Assembly (NCBI GenBank): GCA_021776335.1
Contig: JAJFGB010000007.1
Coordinates: 620,001-684,000, forward strand
DNA: 64,000 bases
Origin: Hyphococcus sp.
GTDB taxonomy: Bacteria > Pseudomonadota > Alphaproteobacteria > Caulobacterales > Parvularculaceae
Direction of reading: 5' to 3'
In this document: positions 4,120-53,355 of the stretch, in pieces
Layout of the letters: each line of letters begins with the position of its first letter
How positions within the stretch are numbered: position 1 is the first letter of the stretch
Program-made: the position numbers and the translations under genes
Notes under the pieces: model-generated
The model's database searches: none
The model's input: the letters and a program-made list of their open reading frames with translations, nothing else
What the model was told of the DNA's origin: nothing

Positions 4120-5034
4120 ATGGACGATGCGCTCAGCAGTATATTCAGCATGTTGCGGCTTAAGAGCTGCGTTTACTTTCTGCGTGATTTCTGCGCGCCC
4201 TGGGGTATGTCCATGGACAAGGGCCGCTTTGCCCAGTTCCATTTGATTGTCGCCGGTATGTGCGTTGCAGAAGTGGATGGGAAAACCCATTACGCCAGAA
4301 ACGGGGACGTGTTGCTGTTTCCCCGCGGCTATCCGCACCAGCTCAAGGATCGTGAAGACACCCGGTGTTTAACCGGGTCGGAAGTGATGGCGTCGCTCGA
4401 AACGTCAACGCCGGCCTTTGTTGAGGGCGGCGAACCCGTTCGTCTTGTTTGCGGGCATTATGAGTACCGCGACACGCCGCCTGTATTGCTCATCGATCAG
4501 CTCCCCGAGTTTATCCATGTACGCGCGTTTGACGTGGCGTCGCCAAGAGCAGCAGATTCGATCGTTCCGTTGCTCCTTCGTGAGCTGGACTCCGGAAAGC
4601 CGGGCGGCAGCACCATTGTCGAACACCTGGCTGAAATCCTGCTGATCCAGACCTTGAGAGAATATGTTGCGACGGCGCCGCATTCGGCCGGTCTGCTAAA
4701 GGGGCTGGCGGACCCTCAACTTGGCCAGGCGCTGAAACTCGCACACGCTCATCCCGAATGGAATCTCTCGGTGGAGCGCCTGGCGCGTGAGGCGGGGATG
4801 TCGCGGTCGGTCTTTAGCGATAAATTTAAATCCGTTATCGGCTTGCCCCCAAGCGAATATCTCACGAAAATACGCATGGTGAACGCAATTGATCTTCTGG
4901 CGGATCAGGCAACCACGATCCCGCAAGTCGCGGAACAGGTTGGATACGCATCCGAAATTTCGTTCGCTCGTGCTTTTAAGCGTGAAACGGGCGCCACACC
5001 GAGCGAATATCGACGACGGCAGTCAATCGCTTAA
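4120..5034 (+). CDS. AraC-family transcriptional regulator with cupin sensor domain
   Basis: DNA-binding regulator of 304 residues. The N-terminal half is a cupin-type ligand domain (KGRFAQFHLIVAGMCVAEVD, then NGDVLLFPRGYPHQL). The C-terminal roughly 100 residues are the double helix-turn-helix AraC domain (LSVERLAREAGMSRSVFSDKFK, then TTIPQVAEQVGYASEISFARAFKRETGATPSEYRR). ATG 4120 is preferred over an upstream in-frame codon because AAGGAG lies 8 nt before it. It diverges from the secreted cupin gene, and the 198-bp gap between them should hold both promoters. Target genes are inferred only from this arrangement. Confidence 0.9.
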   Translation: MDDALSSIFSMLRLKSCVYFLRDFCAPWGMSMDKGRFAQFHLIVAGMCVAEVDGKTHYARNGDVLLFPRGYPHQLKDREDTRCLTGSEVMASLETSTPAFVEGGEPVRLVCGHYEYRDTPPVLLIDQLPEFIHVRAFDVASPRAADSIVPLLLRELDSGKPGGSTIVEHLAEILLIQTLREYVATAPHSAGLLKGLADPQLGQALKLAHAHPEWNLSVERLAREAGMSRSVFSDKFKSVIGLPPSEYLTKIRMVNAIDLLADQATTIPQVAEQVGYASEISFARAFKRETGATPSEYRRRQSIA

Positions 5035-5287
5035 TCGGCACGCTGCTTTACAAGGCGTTCCCTGTAATTCAGTTGCCACTCCTGATCGCTGTCGTCGGCA
5101 GTCCGGATATATTCGACATTCCCGATGACGCAGTCCTTGTAGGTGAACTCGGACCGAACGAATTCTGTGTGTCCTGAATTTTATTTAGAATCCAGAATCC
5201 AGGCGCAGCATTTGAGGCCGGATTGTGGACCATTGATCGCTGGGAACCATCAACGCGCAATGACAAAAAAAGGAATTGCGCGCGCCG
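5035..5287. other. Gap between AraC gene and topA with a residual minus-strand reading frame
   Basis: No complete gene is seen. On the minus strand a frame ending in a stop at 5033-5035 reads EFTYKDCVIGNVEYIRTADD and continues to VKQRAD, which has a protein-like composition. It has no start codon and is blocked upstream by a stop near 5177. A second frame ends just before it in LKCCAWILDSK and a stop. These could be remnants of a decayed gene, but no family is recognised. Confidence 0.25.
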
Positions 5288-7957
5288 CTACTCCGCTGCA
5301 GCTTTTACGGTTTTCTTTTTTGTTGTTTTTTTGGCGGCGGTTTTTTTCTTTGTCGCCTTTTTCTTTGTGGCTTTTTTAGCGGGCGCTTTTTTTGTCGCCT
5401 TCTTTTTGGTCGCCTTTTTCTTCGTCGCTTTCTTCTTCTTCTTCGGCGGTTTCTTTTCCTTGGCGACGATCAGTTCCAGCGCCTGTTCCATGGTTAGTTC
5501 GGTGGGTTCCATACCGCGCGGCAACGTCGCGTTGGTTTTTTGATGTTTCACATATGGGCCAAAGCGGCCATCAAGCACGCGCACCGGATCGCCGGTTTCC
5601 GGATGCTCGCCAAGTTCCTTCAGCGCGTTTGCCGCCTGTCGGCCGCGCGGATTGGCAATCTTTTCCGCAATCAATGTCACGGCGCGATTAAGACCAACTT
5701 CGAAAACTTCTTCGATGGTTGACACATTTGCGTAAGTTTTGCCGTGTTTGACGAACGGTCCGTAGCGTCCAAGCCCGGCTTCGATCATGACACCGTCTTC
5801 GGGATGTGCGCCAACTTCGCGCGGCAGCGACAACAGCATCAGCGCTTTTTCAAAATCGACGTCTTCGACCTTCCAGGTTTTTGGTACGCCGGTACGCTTT
5901 GGTTTTTCTTTTGAGCCTTTTTCAACTTCGCCGAGCTGTATGTAAGGACCGAAGCGGCCAATTTTCAACCAGACTTCAAGACTGCTGTTGGGGTCGACGC
6001 CCAGCACCTTGTCGCTGGTTTCAGGCGCATCATCGCCATTGGTCAGGGCAGATAACTGACGCGTGTGGCTGCAGTCCGGATAGTTCGAGCAGCCGATAAA
6101 GGCGCCATAGCGTCCGGTTTTCAAGGACAGTCGGCCATCATCGCAAGTGGGGCAGGCGCGCGGATCGGATCCGTCTTCTTTCTTGGGAAAAATCAGCGGG
6201 CCGAGGGACTCGTTCAGCGCATCAAGCACTTCTGAAATGCGCAACTCGCCGGTATCTTCGACGGCGGCGTGAAACTCTTTCCAGAAATTTTTGAGAAAGG
6301 CTTTCCAGTCGGCTTTGCCGGCAGAAATTTCATCAAGAGTTTCTTCAAGGTCAGCAGTAAAATCATATTCCACATATTTGCGGAAATAATTTTCCAGAAA
6401 CGCAACGACGATACGGCCTTTGGAATCCGGAATGAACCGGTTTTTGTCCATCGTCACATAGTCGCGATCACGCAAAGTGGTCAGCGTTGAGGCGTAAGTC
6501 GACGGCCGGCCAATGCCGAGTTCTTCAAGGCGTTTAACCAGGCTCGCTTCGGAATAGCGCGGCGGCGGCTGGGTAAAGTGTTGATCGGCTTTGGCATCCG
6601 AAATATCAGCGCTGGCGCCGACGGAAAGTTTTGGCAACACGCCGCCGCCATCCTCGCCATCCACGTCGTCGCGGCCTTCTTCGTAGAGCTTCAAAAACCC
6701 GTCAAATAAAATGACAGAGCCATTGGCGCGCAGGCCGGTTTTTTTATCAGCCGAGGAAAGGTCGATGACCGTGTTTTCAAGCCGCGCCGATTCCATCTGG
6801 CTCGCCATGGCCCGCTTCCAGATCAGCGCGTATAGCTTTTTCTGATCTTCGCCGAGACCCTTGATTTTATCGGGTGAGCGCGAAAACGATGTGGGCCGAA
6901 TAGATTCGTGGGCTTCCTGGGCGTTTTTGACTTTACTCTTATAGACGCGCGGGCTGCCGGGAACATAATTGTCGCCAAAGGTCGCGCCAACAGTGCTGCG
7001 CGCGTCCTGGATGGCTTCCGGCGCCATATCGACGCCGTCGGTTCGCATATAGGTAATAAGACCCGTGGTCTCGCCGCCGATGTCGATACCTTCATAAAGA
7101 TTTTGCGCGGTGCGCATGGTGCGCTGCGCATTAAAGCCAAGCTTGCGCGCGGCTTCCTGTTGCAGGGTAGAGGTCGTGAAGGGCGGCGGCGGGTTACGTT
7201 TGGCGGGCTTGGCCTCGACGGCGCCCACGGTGAATGTCGCTTGCTCGACCGCGCGCTTTGCCGCCATCGCGGCGGCTTCGTTGGCCAGCGTGAATTTTTT
7301 GAGCTTTTCGCCTTCGTGAACAACGAGGCGCGTTTCAAACGCAGCGCTGCCGCCGGACGCTGCCTGCGCGCCGACGCTCCAATATTCTTCCGGAATAAAA
7401 GTTTCGATTTCCAGTTCGCGCACGCAGATGATGCGCAGCGCCACTGACTGGACGCGGCCGGCTGAGCGCGCGCCCGGCAGTTTGCGCCACAACACCGGCG
7501 ACAGGGTAAAGCCCACCAGATAATCAAGGGCGCGCCGCGCGAGGTAGGCGTCAACCAGCGCTTCATCGATCTGCCTTGGATGCGCCATCGCTTCCTGGAC
7601 GGCGGATTTGGTGATCGCGTTGAAGGCAACCCGGTCGATCTTGACGCCTTTCAGCGCCTTTTTTTCGGTCAGGGCTTCCACAAGATGCCAGGAAATCGCT
7701 TCGCCTTCGCGATCCGGGTCGGTCGCGAGGATCAGCCGTTCGGAACCTTTTACGGCTGCGGCGATCTCGTTCATGCGTTTTTTGGAGCCCGCATCGAGTT
7801 CCCAGATCATTTTGAAATCATTGTCGGGATCGACAGAACCGTTCTTCGACGGCAGGTCGCGGATATGCCCGTAGGAGGCCAGCACCGTGAAGCCGGACCC
7901 CAGATATTTGTTTATGGTCTTCGCCTTGGACGGAGACTCAACAATGACAACTTGCAT
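5288..7957 (-). CDS. topA: DNA topoisomerase I
   Basis: Type IA topoisomerase, 889 residues, which relaxes negative supercoils through a transient 5'-phosphotyrosine. TOPRIM domain at residues 1-115 (VVIVESPSKAK, ATDPDREGEAISWHL). Catalytic Tyr303 lies in GLITYMRTDG. The toprim/gate region carries SAGRVQSVALR. A four-cysteine zinc ribbon follows (CPTC, then CSNYPDC). Next are three repeats of the form GRYGPFVKHG typical of alphaproteobacterial TopA, and a very Lys/Ala/Thr-rich tail of about 50 residues likely to hold DNA. Start ATG at 7957. Length and domain order are those expected of the family. It precedes rnr in the usual operon order, but the genes at 2.5-5.0 kb now interrupt it. Confidence 0.98.
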   Translation of the reverse strand: MQVVIVESPSKAKTINKYLGSGFTVLASYGHIRDLPSKNGSVDPDNDFKMIWELDAGSKKRMNEIAAAVKGSERLILATDPDREGEAISWHLVEALTEKKALKGVKIDRVAFNAITKSAVQEAMAHPRQIDEALVDAYLARRALDYLVGFTLSPVLWRKLPGARSAGRVQSVALRIICVRELEIETFIPEEYWSVGAQAASGGSAAFETRLVVHEGEKLKKFTLANEAAAMAAKRAVEQATFTVGAVEAKPAKRNPPPPFTTSTLQQEAARKLGFNAQRTMRTAQNLYEGIDIGGETTGLITYMRTDGVDMAPEAIQDARSTVGATFGDNYVPGSPRVYKSKVKNAQEAHESIRPTSFSRSPDKIKGLGEDQKKLYALIWKRAMASQMESARLENTVIDLSSADKKTGLRANGSVILFDGFLKLYEEGRDDVDGEDGGGVLPKLSVGASADISDAKADQHFTQPPPRYSEASLVKRLEELGIGRPSTYASTLTTLRDRDYVTMDKNRFIPDSKGRIVVAFLENYFRKYVEYDFTADLEETLDEISAGKADWKAFLKNFWKEFHAAVEDTGELRISEVLDALNESLGPLIFPKKEDGSDPRACPTCDDGRLSLKTGRYGAFIGCSNYPDCSHTRQLSALTNGDDAPETSDKVLGVDPNSSLEVWLKIGRFGPYIQLGEVEKGSKEKPKRTGVPKTWKVEDVDFEKALMLLSLPREVGAHPEDGVMIEAGLGRYGPFVKHGKTYANVSTIEEVFEVGLNRAVTLIAEKIANPRGRQAANALKELGEHPETGDPVRVLDGRFGPYVKHQKTNATLPRGMEPTELTMEQALELIVAKEKKPPKKKKKATKKKATKKKATKKAPAKKATKKKATKKKTAAKKTTKKKTVKAAAE

Positions 7958-45866: not shown

Positions 45867-46724
45867 TCAGATCGCCTCCCGTTCCCGGCGGTCGGCCAAA
45901 CGGCGGCCAATGGCAAGGAGGATCACAATCATCACGGCGTAGAGGGCAAGCCCGATTAAATAATGATCAGCAGCGATGCGCCATTCCGGCGGCGTCACGC
46001 CGGCAAGAAAAATGATTGCGGAAATGCGCAGGATATTTGTCGCGATCGCCGCAGCGACGGCAATTGCAGCGAACATCAATGCTTTTTCCCAGCGACTGAA
46101 CCAGGCATGCGCGAAATATGCTGACGCCATCAGCGCAACAAGAAGAAAATTCAGGCCGGCGCAGGCTGCGGCGATATTAAAGCCGCCTGCTTGCGTGATG
46201 ATCACGGTGCCGTTGTTGATGAGACCGACACCGCCAAGTTTGAGCAAGGCGGAAACGCTTATCGTTGTGATCGTCTGAAGGCCCGGGACCAAAACCTCGC
46301 CAAAGGGAACCATGAAATAGAGAAAGGCGAGCGGAAACGCGTATTGGCGCGTGACAGCCAGCCCAAAGATCACTGCAACGCCGGCGATGAGCAGGCTGAC
46401 AAAAGCGAAATGCTCGATAAGGGCGATGCCAGCGACCTGTCCGGCAAGCCACAAGAGCGCGGCCGCGAGAACCAGGCCGCATGCAATAAAATTCGCTTTC
46501 GGCAAGGGCGCTTCGTGGCGATGCGCATAGATCATCCATAGGGCCATCGGCGCGACGAAAAACCCATGACGCCAGGAAGATGATGTCGCCCACAGCGTCA
46601 CCATTTCAGCGACGGTCGATTGCAGCAAAGTGATACAGGCGAGCACAAATGCGCCATAGGCGGCGATCAGCGCGGCCCATCGGGGCTGTGAAACAGCGAC
46701 ATTGTTAACGCTTGCAACGGTCAT
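45867..46724 (-). CDS. Exosortase (XrtA-like)
   Basis: About 285 residues; polytopic membrane cysteine protease/transpeptidase that processes PEP-CTERM proteins. Catalytic residues are in place: Cys188 in FNIAAACAGLNFLLVALM, Arg233 in ATNILRISAIIFLAG and His254 in IAADHYLIGLALYAVMI, with about eight hydrophobic segments. It lacks the C-terminal EpsI domain found on larger exosortase A proteins. ATG 46724 is used; ATG 46787 is also in frame and neither has a clear ribosome site. It leads an operon with the amidotransferase. No PEP-CTERM substrate is seen in this window. Confidence 0.88.
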   Translation of the reverse strand: MTVASVNNVAVSQPRWAALIAAYGAFVLACITLLQSTVAEMVTLWATSSSWRHGFFVAPMALWMIYAHRHEAPLPKANFIACGLVLAAALLWLAGQVAGIALIEHFAFVSLLIAGVAVIFGLAVTRQYAFPLAFLYFMVPFGEVLVPGLQTITTISVSALLKLGGVGLINNGTVIITQAGGFNIAAACAGLNFLLVALMASAYFAHAWFSRWEKALMFAAIAVAAAIATNILRISAIIFLAGVTPPEWRIAADHYLIGLALYAVMIVILLAIGRRLADRREREAI

Positions 46725-46848
46725 GGCGGGAGAAGTGCAAAACCGCCGCCAGGAGGGCGGGGCTGTTAACCACGCTTCGGGGCCCATGTTTATTTTCGAG
46801 CGTGCTTCCAGCCGGATTCGGTTGTGATTAAGGTGAAGCCCTCATTCA

Positions 46849-46895
46849 CCCTCATCCTGAGGAGCCGTTCGAAGAACGGCGTCGCGAAGGATCGG
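46849..46895. repeat. Family D structured palindrome, left copy at GIY-YIG gene
   Basis: CCTCATCCTGAGGAGC arm, inner hairpin CCGTTC-GAA-GAACGG, then GTCGCGAAGGATCGG. It encodes the last 14 residues and the stop of the GIY-YIG protein. It is the mirror image of the copy at 47240-47285. Confidence 0.85.
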
Positions 46896-47205
46896 ACGAA
46901 AATGATGGCCTCACACCACGCTGGGATAACGCTTGCAACGCGGCACTGTCACCGCGAATGAGCGCCTGTTTTTTTGCTCGGTTCCAACCCTTGATGCATC
47001 GTTCGCAGGCGACCATTTCGTCATAGCGATGGAAATTCTCGCTCCAGACCAATTCAACGGGACGACGGCGAAATGTATACGATTGCGTATCCCTTCCGGA
47101 ATTGTGCTGAGCGACACGTATTTCCACGGTATCGCCGCGATGCGAACCAACGTAGTAGCTGCCGTCTGCGCAATTCAGCATATATACGACACCGACTACG
47201 CGCAT
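46852..47205 (-). CDS. GIY-YIG nuclease-domain protein (UPF0213 type)
   Basis: 117 residues. GIY-YIG motifs are intact: GVVYMLNCADGSYYVGSH (Tyr8, Tyr18), EIRVAQHNSGRDT (Arg30), and the metal-binding Glu68 in CERCIKGWNRAKKQALIRGD. Residues about 104-117 (SDPSRRRSSNGSSG) and the stop are read out of the left palindrome, so the gene end is made by the repeat. The start, at 47205, is 35 bp from the right palindrome. The whole unit 46849-47285 is 437 bp. Related small proteins have no settled function; a repair or nuclease role is assumed for the family. The layout suggests a link between this nuclease and the palindromes. Confidence 0.88.
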   Translation of the reverse strand: MRVVGVVYMLNCADGSYYVGSHRGDTVEIRVAQHNSGRDTQSYTFRRRPVELVWSENFHRYDEMVACERCIKGWNRAKKQALIRGDSAALQALSQRGVRPSFSSDPSRRRSSNGSSG

Positions 47206-47239
47206 TTTCCTGTTCCCGTTGATGGCGCTATGCCTGTTG

Positions 47240-47285
47240 CCGATCCTTCGCGACGCAAAGCTTCACTTTGCTCCTCAGGATGAGG
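47240..47285. repeat. Family D structured palindrome, right copy at GIY-YIG gene
   Basis: CCGATCCTTCGCGAC, inner hairpin GCAAAG-CTTCA-CTTTGC, GCTCCTCAGGATGAGG. The outer arms are identical to the left copy in reverse, while the inner stem has a different sequence but still pairs. Confidence 0.85.
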
Positions 47286-47309: not shown

Positions 47310-49268
47310 CTACCTATTCTTGCGACCGTCGATCAGCGCATCGACGACGCTGGGATCAGCGAGCGTTGAAATATCGCCAAGGGCTGAATGTTCATTCTCG
47401 GCGATCTTGCGCAGGATGCGACGCATGATTTTTCCTGACCGGGTTTTTGGCAGCGCCGGCGTCAAGTGAATGAGATCCGGTTTGGCGATCGGTCCGATTT
47501 CCTTGCGCACCCAGTCCGAAAGTTCTTTTTCAAGCGTGGATGTGTCGCCTTCAATTTCCGACTCTGCGTCTTCCATCAACGTCACATAGGCGTAAATGCC
47601 CTGGCCCTTGATGTCATGAGGATAGCCGACGACGGCGGCCTCGGCGACTTTGTGATGAGCGACAAGGGCGCTTTCAACTTCGGCTGTTCCCATACGGTGA
47701 CCGGAGACATTGATGACGTCATCGACACGGCCGGTGATCCAGTAATACCCATCCGCGTCGCGCTTGGCGCCGTCACCGGTGAAATAAAGACCCGGATAAG
47801 TTTTAAAATAGGTGTCGATGAAACGCTGATGGTCGCCATAGACACTGCGCATCTGACCGGGCCAAGAACCGGCAATGACGAGATTGCCTTGCGCTTCACC
47901 TTCAAGAAATTCGCCATTGGCGTCAACGATAGCGGGGAAGATCCCCGGTAGCGGCTGCGTCGCAGAGCCGGGTTTTAGATCAGTGGCGCCGGGTAAAGGC
48001 GAGATCAAAACGCCGCCGGTTTCCGTCTGCCACCAGGTGTCAACAATCGGCAGCTTTCCGTCGCCGACAATGTTGTAATACCACAGCCAGGCTTCCGGAT
48101 TGATCGGCTCGCCGACGGTGCCAAGCAGACGCAAAGATGACCGGTCTGCGGCTTTAACAAAATCGTCGCCGTCGCGCATCAATGCGCGGATCGCGGTCGG
48201 CGCTGTATAAAAGATTTCGACTTTATGTTTTTCAACAACGCGCCAGAAGCGTGATGCGTCGGGCCAGGTCGGCACGCCCTCAAACATTAGTGTCGTCGCG
48301 CCATTGGCGAGCGGTCCATAGACTATATAAGTGTGACCAGTAACCCAGCCGACATCGGCCGTGCACCAATAGATTTCACCGGGCCGGTAATCGAAAACAA
48401 GTTCATGAGAATAGGCGGCATAGGTGAGATAGCCGCCCGTTGTATGGAGAACGCCTTTGGGCGTTCCCGTTGACCCGGAAGTATAAAGTATAAACAGCGG
48501 ATCTTCGGCGTCCATTTCTTCAGGCGCGCAATCCGGGGAGACATCATCGCGGGCTTCGCCATACCAAAAAAGATCGCGGCCCGGCGCCATGGCGATATCA
48601 GCGCCGGTGCGTTCAACCGTCAAAACCAGCCTGACGCCATCGGTTTTTTCCAGCGCTTTATCCACATTGGTTTTTAATGGCACTGTCTTGCCGCCGCGCA
48701 CGCCTTCGTCAGCGGTGATGACCGCAACGGCGCCGCAATCTTTAATGCGGCTGGCGAGAGCGTCCGGCGAAAAGCCGCCAAAGACGACGGAATGAACGGC
48801 GCCGATCCGCGCGCAGGCGAGCATGGCGTATGCTGCTTCGGGAATCATTGGCATATAAAGAACAACGCGATCGCCGCGATTGACGCCGCGCGCCTTTAAG
48901 AGATTCGCCATGCGGCAGGTTTCTTCGAAAGCCTCCGCGTAGGTTATTTTTTTGTCGGTTTTCGGATCATCGCCTTCCCAGATGATGGCGATATCGTTGG
49001 CGCGCTCCGGCAAATGGCGGTCGAGGCAGTTGACACTGGCGTTTAGTTTGCCGTCGTAAAACCATTTGATATGGAGATCATCAGCGTCAAAGGAGACGTC
49101 TTTGACTTTTGTAAAAGGCGTGGACCAGGTAATCCGCTGGGCGACTTCCGACCAGAAATCCTCTGGATGCTCAGCGGCGCGCCGGTGCATCTCAGCCGCT
49201 TTGTCAGCATTGACGAGGGTATTTTTTGCAGCAGCGCCGCTCACTTTGACGATTGTGTGGTCAGTCAT
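47310..49268 (-). CDS. acs: Acetyl-CoA synthetase
   Basis: 652 residues; AMP-forming acetate activation, ATP plus acetate plus CoA to acetyl-CoA. Adenylation motif [59 protein letters not shown] and the regulatory acetylation lysine in [14 protein letters not shown] near the C-terminus. ATG 49268 is chosen over a long upstream frame because GGAGAAAG lies 5 nt before it and the upstream part is the family E repeat. Probably allows growth on acetate. Its neighbours are unrelated, so it is likely a single transcription unit. Confidence 0.98.
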
Positions 49269-49290
49269 GTCTTTCTCCAGAGTCTCTAAA

Positions 49291-49427
49291 TACCAACGGG
49301 CAAAAAGAATGACCGTTGGGCGTTCAATCGCCACGCAGGCTTTCGCGCCATAAGGCGCGGCGGCCAAAATACCCAAGAGGGGCGGCCTTACCAAAGCTCA
49401 AAATGAGTGGGTCATTTCGTGCTTTGG
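49291..49427. repeat. Family E structured repeat, copy 2
   Basis: Matches 38165-38282 closely from CCAACGG through CGCCATAAGGCGCGGCG, then a 15-20 bp longer spacer, and ends in the hairpin CCAAAGC / GCTTTGG where copy 1 has CCAGAGC / GCTCTGG. It lies in the leader region of acs, in antisense orientation to it. Confidence 0.8.
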
Positions 49428-53307: not shown

Positions 53308-53355
53308 CCATCCTTCGAGGCTCGCGGCTTTGCCGCTCGCACGTCAGGATGAGGG
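53308..53355. repeat. Family D palindrome, solo copy
   Basis: CCATCCTTCGAGG, CTC, inner hairpin GCGGC-TTT-GCCGC, TCGCACGTCAGGATGAGGG. Same outer ends as at the GIY-YIG gene but with a third, unrelated inner stem. No nuclease gene is nearby. Confidence 0.75.

Follow-up and report, generated by a model that had tools for sequence, protein, structure and literature searches.

The locus

The window is the whole 64,000-nt stretch of DNA analyzed here, part of a 4.18-Mb Hyphococcus sp. genome (G000; G001 etc. are genomes of relatives, and L numbers designate loci). It includes a short GIY-YIG nuclease gene lying between two palindromes, with the following features in and around it:

45867..46787, minus strand: exosortase-like membrane protein gene (xrt; name from the protein reading alone), left border of the insertion site
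46850..47285, no strand: whole palindrome-gene-palindrome unit, 436 bp
46850..46895, plus strand: left palindrome, type A (GAGGAG..GTCGCGAAGGATCGG), inner stem GCCGTTC/GAACGGC
46852..47205, minus strand: GIY-YIG nuclease gene (PF01541), 117 aa, C subfamily (CADGSYYVGSHRG)
47240..47285, minus strand: right palindrome, type A, in mirror orientation, inner stem GCAAAG/CTTTGC
47310..49394, minus strand: acetyl-CoA synthetase-like gene (acs; name from the protein reading alone), right border of the insertion site
53309..53354, minus strand: solitary B-like palindrome, a dispersed relative, 5′ arm two mismatches from CCTCATCCTGAGGAGC

A preliminary description of this DNA had proposed a 437-bp unit of a GIY-YIG gene and two mirrored palindromes, and apart from the one base pair this is what is found. 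The outer arms are identical on both sides, as it had stated: CCTCATCCTGAGGAGC at 46850-46865 and GTCGCGAAGGATCGG at 46881-46895 in the left palindrome, and, read on the minus strand, CCTCATCCTGAGGAGC at 47285-47270 and GTCGCGAAGGATCGG at 47254-47240 in the right. It was also correct that the inner stems are unlike in sequence and nevertheless pair, and that the protein ends inside the left palindrome, which encodes, on its opposite strand, the C-terminus from about residue 104 and the TGA stop. At the other end, 34 bp lie between the start codon and the right palindrome. The DNA match between this unit and that of G014, which spans the gene, begins at 46848, the palindrome edge.

The nuclease

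The 117-aa protein matches PF01541 (E 3.4e-12; 46.9 bits, cut-off 22.6), the sole domain above its cut-off. Among 34 proteins compared, Y8, Y18, G20, H34, and E68 are invariant and R30 is nearly so; the conserved GIY/YIG tyrosines, Arg, His, and Glu are presumably the catalytic residues. An AlphaFold model has a mean pLDDT of 85.2; confidence is low in the tail, which starts near residue 98 and corresponds to the region reaching into the left palindrome. The closest solved structures are UPF0213 GIY-YIG proteins, both by profile (1zg2, E 6.8e-17; 1ywl, E 1.3e-13) and by fold (1zg2, E 3e-5; 1ywl, E 8e-4), followed by Slx1 and the N-domain of UvrC (E > 0.01); we know of no palindrome association for UPF0213 proteins. 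For the C gene, dN/dS lies between 0.037 and 0.153 in the 14 pairs, out of 15, that gave a value, showing strong purifying selection.

A phage, plasmid, or defense origin was considered and rejected: the search gave just four distant phage and four plasmid records, and at E 0.01 the protein matches no family in PHROG or PADLOC; nor does it have an NCBIfam.

Palindrome types, copies, and folding

With up to three mismatches allowed, CCTCATCCTGAGGAGC has three matches in the window vs. 0.27 expected, a number reached in 0 of 100 shuffles. The pattern CTCATCCTGAGGAGC-N{4,30}-CGAAGGAT occurs twice in the whole genome, both occurrences being the window pair, and the reversed-pattern control gives none. 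A second type (B, with GAGGTG or GAGGCG), defined by a pattern that does not match the window pair, has 29 copies in G000 and again none in the reversed control. Chance origin of the palindrome pattern was ruled out by these counts against shuffles and reversed controls.

The two types are differently distributed in this genome: type A is found around the window gene only, while type B is dispersed and also surrounds a second GIY-YIG gene (L001). Both single palindromes and head-to-head pairs occur at scattered places in G000, 22 of the 29 B copies forming 11 such pairs (spacing 24-29 bp in all 11 of the close pairs). Since type A is present in G000 as its two flanking copies only, the A unit has no dispersed offspring there; in G014, type A accounts for 28 of 29 copies among the palindromes listed.

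Several of the head-to-head B pairs in G000 lie close together around the B-type GIY-YIG gene, no more than about 4.5 kb from it (G000:C8:308440-312895; L001, L013-L019), as if palindromes land beside their own gene. Separately, the spacers of some pairs look alike by eye (L016/L035 and L023/L029, among loci L012-L035), which hints that pairs were copied as pairs.

As single-stranded DNA, both window palindromes are predicted to fold better than their shuffles (z -3.0 and -2.7), with 0 of 200 and 2 of 200 shuffles folding as well. The predicted optimal fold of each is two small hairpins (CCTCA-TCC-TGAGG and the variable stem), with no single long stem. Pairing at the outer five positions of the variable stem is 0.947 for type A (57 distinct palindromes; shuffled mean 0.436) and 0.805 for type B (86 distinct palindromes; shuffled mean 0.523).

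Association within the genus

Across 28 genomes of the genus, PF01541 matches yielded 70 small GIY-YIG genes, 14 of them in the C subfamily (CADGSYYVG and near forms). CCTGAG..CGAAGG palindromes adjoin all 14 C genes, on both sides in 11 cases, and none of the other 56; by a looser pattern, two of these 56 (L081, L127) have a palindrome at a greater distance, 222 and 418 bp beyond the domain. Nor was one found within 300 bp of the uvrC ORF at any of 23 loci, several of which are cut at one end. With uvrC and the other small genes lacking the palindrome, a generic GIY-YIG association was ruled out.

The larger remaining group, the N subfamily (NGTLYIG), goes with a different palindrome, TCATTCCCGCGAAAGCGGGAATCC-like, which adjoins 32 of 52 N genes, none of the 14 C genes, and none of the four other genes. 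The density of this CGTC/dRS3-like palindrome is 1.95/kb near the gene (68 in 34.9 kb) vs. 0.022/kb more than 800 bp away (2 in 91.6 kb).

Enrichment beside GIY-YIG genes across genomes had been set beforehand as a test that could refute the idea of a nuclease-palindrome unit; it is strong, and specific to one subfamily. The link therefore stands for the CADGSYYVG subfamily, though not as a general one: most other small genes have a different palindrome family or none.

The N genes and their CGTC/dRS3-like palindromes look like a parallel system (L066-L134, e.g., L067, L075, L109, L121). A further small GIY-YIG match in G000, the third, belongs to another type; it is interrupted by a TGA, and no such palindrome adjoins it (L004; G000:C8:168191-168331).

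One simple explanation would be that the palindromes are ordinary terminators, or hairpins stabilizing the mRNA, beside a small gene. They do lie at gene ends and are predicted to fold, and one of them supplies the stop codon. Their frequent presence on both sides, a class specific to the gene subfamily, their absence at uvrC and the other small GIY-YIG genes, and arms conserved beyond what a terminator needs make this extremely improbable.

Association beyond the genus

Relatives were collected from public genomes by protein alone, the best 80 of 91 representing 79 distinct loci; these are not all independent, since 11 of the 79 are the genus loci again and L205 and L206 come from one assembly. 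Around these best 80 of 91, a general palindrome pattern gives 195 matches in the 51.1 kb within 300 bp of the gene (3.82/kb) and 34 in the 514.3 kb more than 1 kb away (0.066/kb), with none near or far for the reversed-pattern control; the first pattern used gives 169 in 46.3 kb near the gene vs. 24 in 514.3 kb far from it. Of the loci in this set with at least 200 bp on each side, 71 of 74 have a palindrome, 47 of them on both sides. Three loci (L173, L210, L214) have none by the general pattern, yet variant palindromes are visible in their sequence: in L173 the arms are CATGGTGAGC..GACGAACCATG, a paired change from CC/GG to GG/CC. Hosts among the same best 80 of 91 include Caulobacter, Roseibium, Thiobacillus, Aromatoleum, Desulfobacterota, Nitrospirota, Dadabacteria, and Chloroflexi, although many relatives are MAGs and their host labels may therefore err.

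Variant arms (TGGTGAGC..GAACCA-like) adjoin C genes in L173, L224, L227, L228, and L233. Here GG/CC stands where the usual arms have CC/GG, so that both sides of the outer stem have changed together.

At class level (289 genomes), the gene is found in 30 genomes and a narrower palindrome pattern, which undercounts because it misses the window A type (GTCGCGAAGG), in 40. At least two palindromes are present in 19 of the 30 genomes with the gene vs. 13 of the 259 without it (Fisher p 4e-14), and at least 10 in 12 of 30 vs. 4 of 259. A specific association of this gene subfamily with a palindrome superfamily is thus shown, at the level of sequence, across many bacteria. Three observations count against the palindromes and gene forming a mobile element: by the narrow pattern, 11 of the 30 genomes with the gene have fewer than two palindromes; 13 of 259 have at least two with no gene found; and the nearest flanking pair, while inverted at 36 of 49 loci, is direct at 13.

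The genomes with palindromes and no gene would fit another possibility, that the palindromes are REPs moved by some other enzyme (a RAYT or other transposase), with the GIY-YIG gene a passenger. PF01797 matches, found in 9 of the 28 genus genomes (7 of them over the cut-off, including the palindrome-rich G014 and G016), would also be consistent with this. Neither G000 (99.5% complete) nor G001 (99%, one contig) has such a match, however, and a RAYT as the mover in G000 was ruled out on that ground, there being no PF01797 (Y1) match in the genome. A one-to-one pairing of GIY-YIG subfamily with palindrome family would not be expected for a passenger, nor would recurrence in Betaproteobacteria, Desulfobacterota, and Chloroflexi, and the idea seems very unlikely.

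Co-inheritance of gene and palindrome class

On a tree of 82 C proteins, which has few columns and many weak forks, palindrome class requires 14 changes vs. a mean of 46.0 for shuffled classes, and 0 of 200 shuffles were as low. Paralogs within one genome have the palindrome class of their own clade (L175/L186; L168 and L180/L190; L162/L189; the window gene and L001). Palindrome class is shown to follow protein clade on this tree; because flanks are inherited with the gene, this is partly expected, and alone is no proof of recognition.

Matching in trans is mixed, judged by eye among the palindromes listed. Dispersed palindromes match the flanks of the resident gene in G014, G114, G211, and G254 and for the B gene of G000; they do not in G001 and G015, in G227, or for the two listed for G143; and G007, G011, and G055 have both matching and other types. 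For this reason, no conclusions are rested on it.

Sites with and without the unit, and duplicated blocks

The existence of sites with and without the unit in relatives, also set beforehand as a refuting test, was examined at two places, and both kinds exist. The first is the acs-xrt site of the window. The acs locus was found in 25 relatives, of which 22 have xrt as its neighbor in the sequence compared, and in all 22 both the GIY-YIG gene and the unit are absent from that position. The sites were compared by distances, a MAFFT alignment of the junctions being uninformative: the gap is approximately 3-88 bp in 17 relatives and 168, 246, 938, 952, and 1,208 bp in the other five. A solitary B palindrome is present at this site in G010, and no palindrome at the other 21.

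The second is the X-Y site, where the sister A units of G001 and G014 share one orthologous position, with neighboring genes other than those of the window unit. Both borders could be read in 17 genomes: two (G001, G014) have the unit, G002 has a solitary A palindrome, G008 has a B pair, and 13, including G000, have no palindrome by pattern. The site is a plain 30-39 bp gap in G024, G004, G020, and G019; in several other genomes, including G000, it holds different sequence of some hundred bases.

Other repeats are seen here as well. In G002, G018, and G015 (L255, L262, L273) the X-Y site has another repeat-like sequence, ..CTTCCCCCGCAAGCGGGGGAAG.. and near forms, and in G010 (L268) a different inverted repeat, CCTCATCCTTATCTGTG.., unlike both palindrome types; the site seems to attract repeats.

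These sites bear on the possibility of a homing-type selfish gene, which would cut palindrome pairs elsewhere and be copied by repair from an intact unit, the palindromes serving as homology arms. The GIY-YIG family includes homing endonucleases; the gene often lies between two head-to-head pairs (- + gene - +; e.g., L001, L102); and G002 has its solitary A palindrome at just the site where G001 and G014 have the unit. That palindrome may equally be a remnant, though, and targets of the kind needed are mostly absent, from 13 of 17 X-Y sites by pattern (four of these being the plain gaps) and from 21 of 22 acs-xrt sites. Homing of this kind is on balance improbable, if somewhat less so than a passenger gene.

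Borders can be read most directly where one genome has two copies. In a Caulobacterales MAG, L168 and L180 have a single gene-spanning block in common (4879-5312 in both) that runs from the outer edge of one palindrome to the outer edge of the other; beyond these edges, further palindromes alone match, and there are no flanking ORFs in common. Identity is 42/44 and 45/46 in the palindromes and 275/344 in the intervening stretch, and the two genes differ with dS 1.12 (dN/dS 0.039). Ends better conserved than synonymous sites are expected if they are recognized; gene conversion could do likewise. In a deltaproteobacterial MAG, L213 and L219 have a block in common that begins 8 bp beyond the left palindrome and stops at the outer edge of the right palindrome, the L213 copy of which is decayed. 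The element ends thus coincide with inverted repeats in both pairs, apart from that decayed right end. No target-site duplication was evident by eye at the filled sites of the window and of the X-Y position. At the level of sequence, this shows a block that has been duplicated within genomes, is bounded by the palindromes, and occupies different chromosomal sites in related species.

It is not a very active element, if it is one, as many units have long been at one site (the Marinicaulis B, Caulobacter B, and Thiobacillus units); the common neighborhood of many close pairs of loci also speaks against high activity. Such long residence in many lineages, together with the purifying selection and the tie of the sister subfamily N to a CGTC/dRS3-like palindrome, would suit a different role: a site-specific single-strand nuclease, like the Ssn enzymes discussed below, kept for a host job such as limiting DNA uptake or recombination at marked sites. 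The palindromes would then be its sites rather than mobile offspring, and past moves of the unit would be due to general recombination. We regard this as unlikely, while giving it more weight than the alternatives above. Same-genome copies have a palindrome-bounded block in common and the units of sister species are at different sites, so that an element fits better than a fixed host gene. The two ideas are mutually compatible.

A probable mobile element with a GIY-YIG enzyme

Association and mobility of the unit are well supported by these comparisons. The proposal that nuclease and palindrome form a mobile unit like RAYT/REP is correspondingly supported, by the specific association, the unit-free sites, and the borders at palindromes. 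Probably, though with considerable room for doubt, the unit is a compact mobile element of the REP type, with a single-domain GIY-YIG nuclease as the enzyme that acts on the cognate palindrome.

We infer recognition and nicking or cutting of the palindrome by the nuclease, movement driven by it, and copying by host replication, along the following lines. The two palindromes would be both the ends of the element and the cognate sites of the nuclease, which would recognize them most likely as single-stranded hairpins exposed during replication or DNA uptake. It might nick at or beside the conserved CCTGAG..CGAAGG arms, after which host replication and repair could copy the freed 3′ end or fragment elsewhere. 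Palindromes and pairs found in isolation would then be non-autonomous offspring. Copying is assigned to the host because GIY-YIG enzymes hydrolyze DNA and are not known to form a covalent intermediate like that of a RAYT. We know of no GIY-YIG enzyme that transposes, and of no covalent strand-transfer chemistry in this family.

If the nuclease does drive the spread, this would be selfish DNA moving without a transposase-type enzyme. The unit provides a candidate enzyme for repeats whose spread had lacked an explanation. What enzyme underlies this widespread class of bacterial repeats can now be tested directly, given a protein of 117 residues and a substrate of 46 bases.

Comparison with known systems

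One of the nearest parallels is in Neisseria, where Chenal et al. (Nat Commun 2025) reportedly describe Ssn proteins as GIY-YIG site-specific ssDNA nucleases linked to the NTS/dRS3 genomic repeat. Ssn is said to act on the dRS3-type repeat and to alter natural transformation. The statement in the preliminary description that no GIY-YIG system of this kind was established is, given these nucleases, probably out of date. Ssn is similar in being a small GIY-YIG nuclease with a cognate repeat both beside its gene and dispersed (here, type B is dispersed); it differs in that the dRS3-type palindrome resembles that of the N subfamily, not the CCTGAG..CGAAGG of the C subfamily.

A literature search at the level of titles and abstract openings gave no link between GIY-YIG proteins and REPs; the string CTCATCCTGAGG occurs in two unrelated papers. 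Among the closest systems in layout are the REP/RAYT elements (REPtrons, Nunvar 2010, PMC2817692; REPINs, Bertels 2011, PMC3116915). These too are small, with a single gene and two inverted flanking palindromes, and their palindromes are dispersed singly and as inverted pairs. Stems that keep pairing while their sequence changes are a further likeness. The differences lie in the enzyme, here a GIY-YIG nuclease where a RAYT is a Y1/HUH transposase, and in the palindrome, which has no GTAG tag but a CCTC-type one (5′ end CCTCATCC). The unit may work like REP/RAYT, yet it is not one, as the enzyme was tested and is different (PF01541, no PF01797).

The palindromes themselves are closer to the CGTC REPs, which, in the passages of Di Nocera 2013 (PMC3733652) drawn on here, are largely alphaproteobacterial and mostly in head-to-head pairs, have a tag that may read TGTC or CCTC, a stem of 8-9 bp that begins AT, a loop of 4-5 bases, and in most cases a CCA tail, and include Neisseria CGTC-1 repeats equated with dRS3. 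The window palindromes share the tag and the AT start (CCTC-ATCC..GGAT), and type B the head-to-head pairs; unlike CGTC REPs, the window pair has two conserved arms with a variable inner stem and no CCA tail. CGTC palindromes are closer to the N-subfamily palindrome than to the C-subfamily one, and the strings CCTGAG and GAAGG are absent from the main text of Di Nocera 2013. According to the passages drawn on, CGTC REPs “apparently lack a dedicated transposase”; they leave the mover open and name no nuclease for these repeats (PMC3733652).

Two GIY-YIG subfamilies of one genus are tied to two different palindrome families. A tentative extension, to which we would give somewhat less than even chances, is that there is a general class of REP-type elements run by hydrolytic GIY-YIG nucleases, with one palindrome family per subfamily and spread by ssDNA nicking and host copying: CCTGAG..CGAAGG for C (seen beside the gene in Alphaproteobacteria and as far afield as Chloroflexi) and the CGTC/dRS3-like family for N. 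If true, this would explain the spread of CGTC-type repeats, thought to be without an enzyme.
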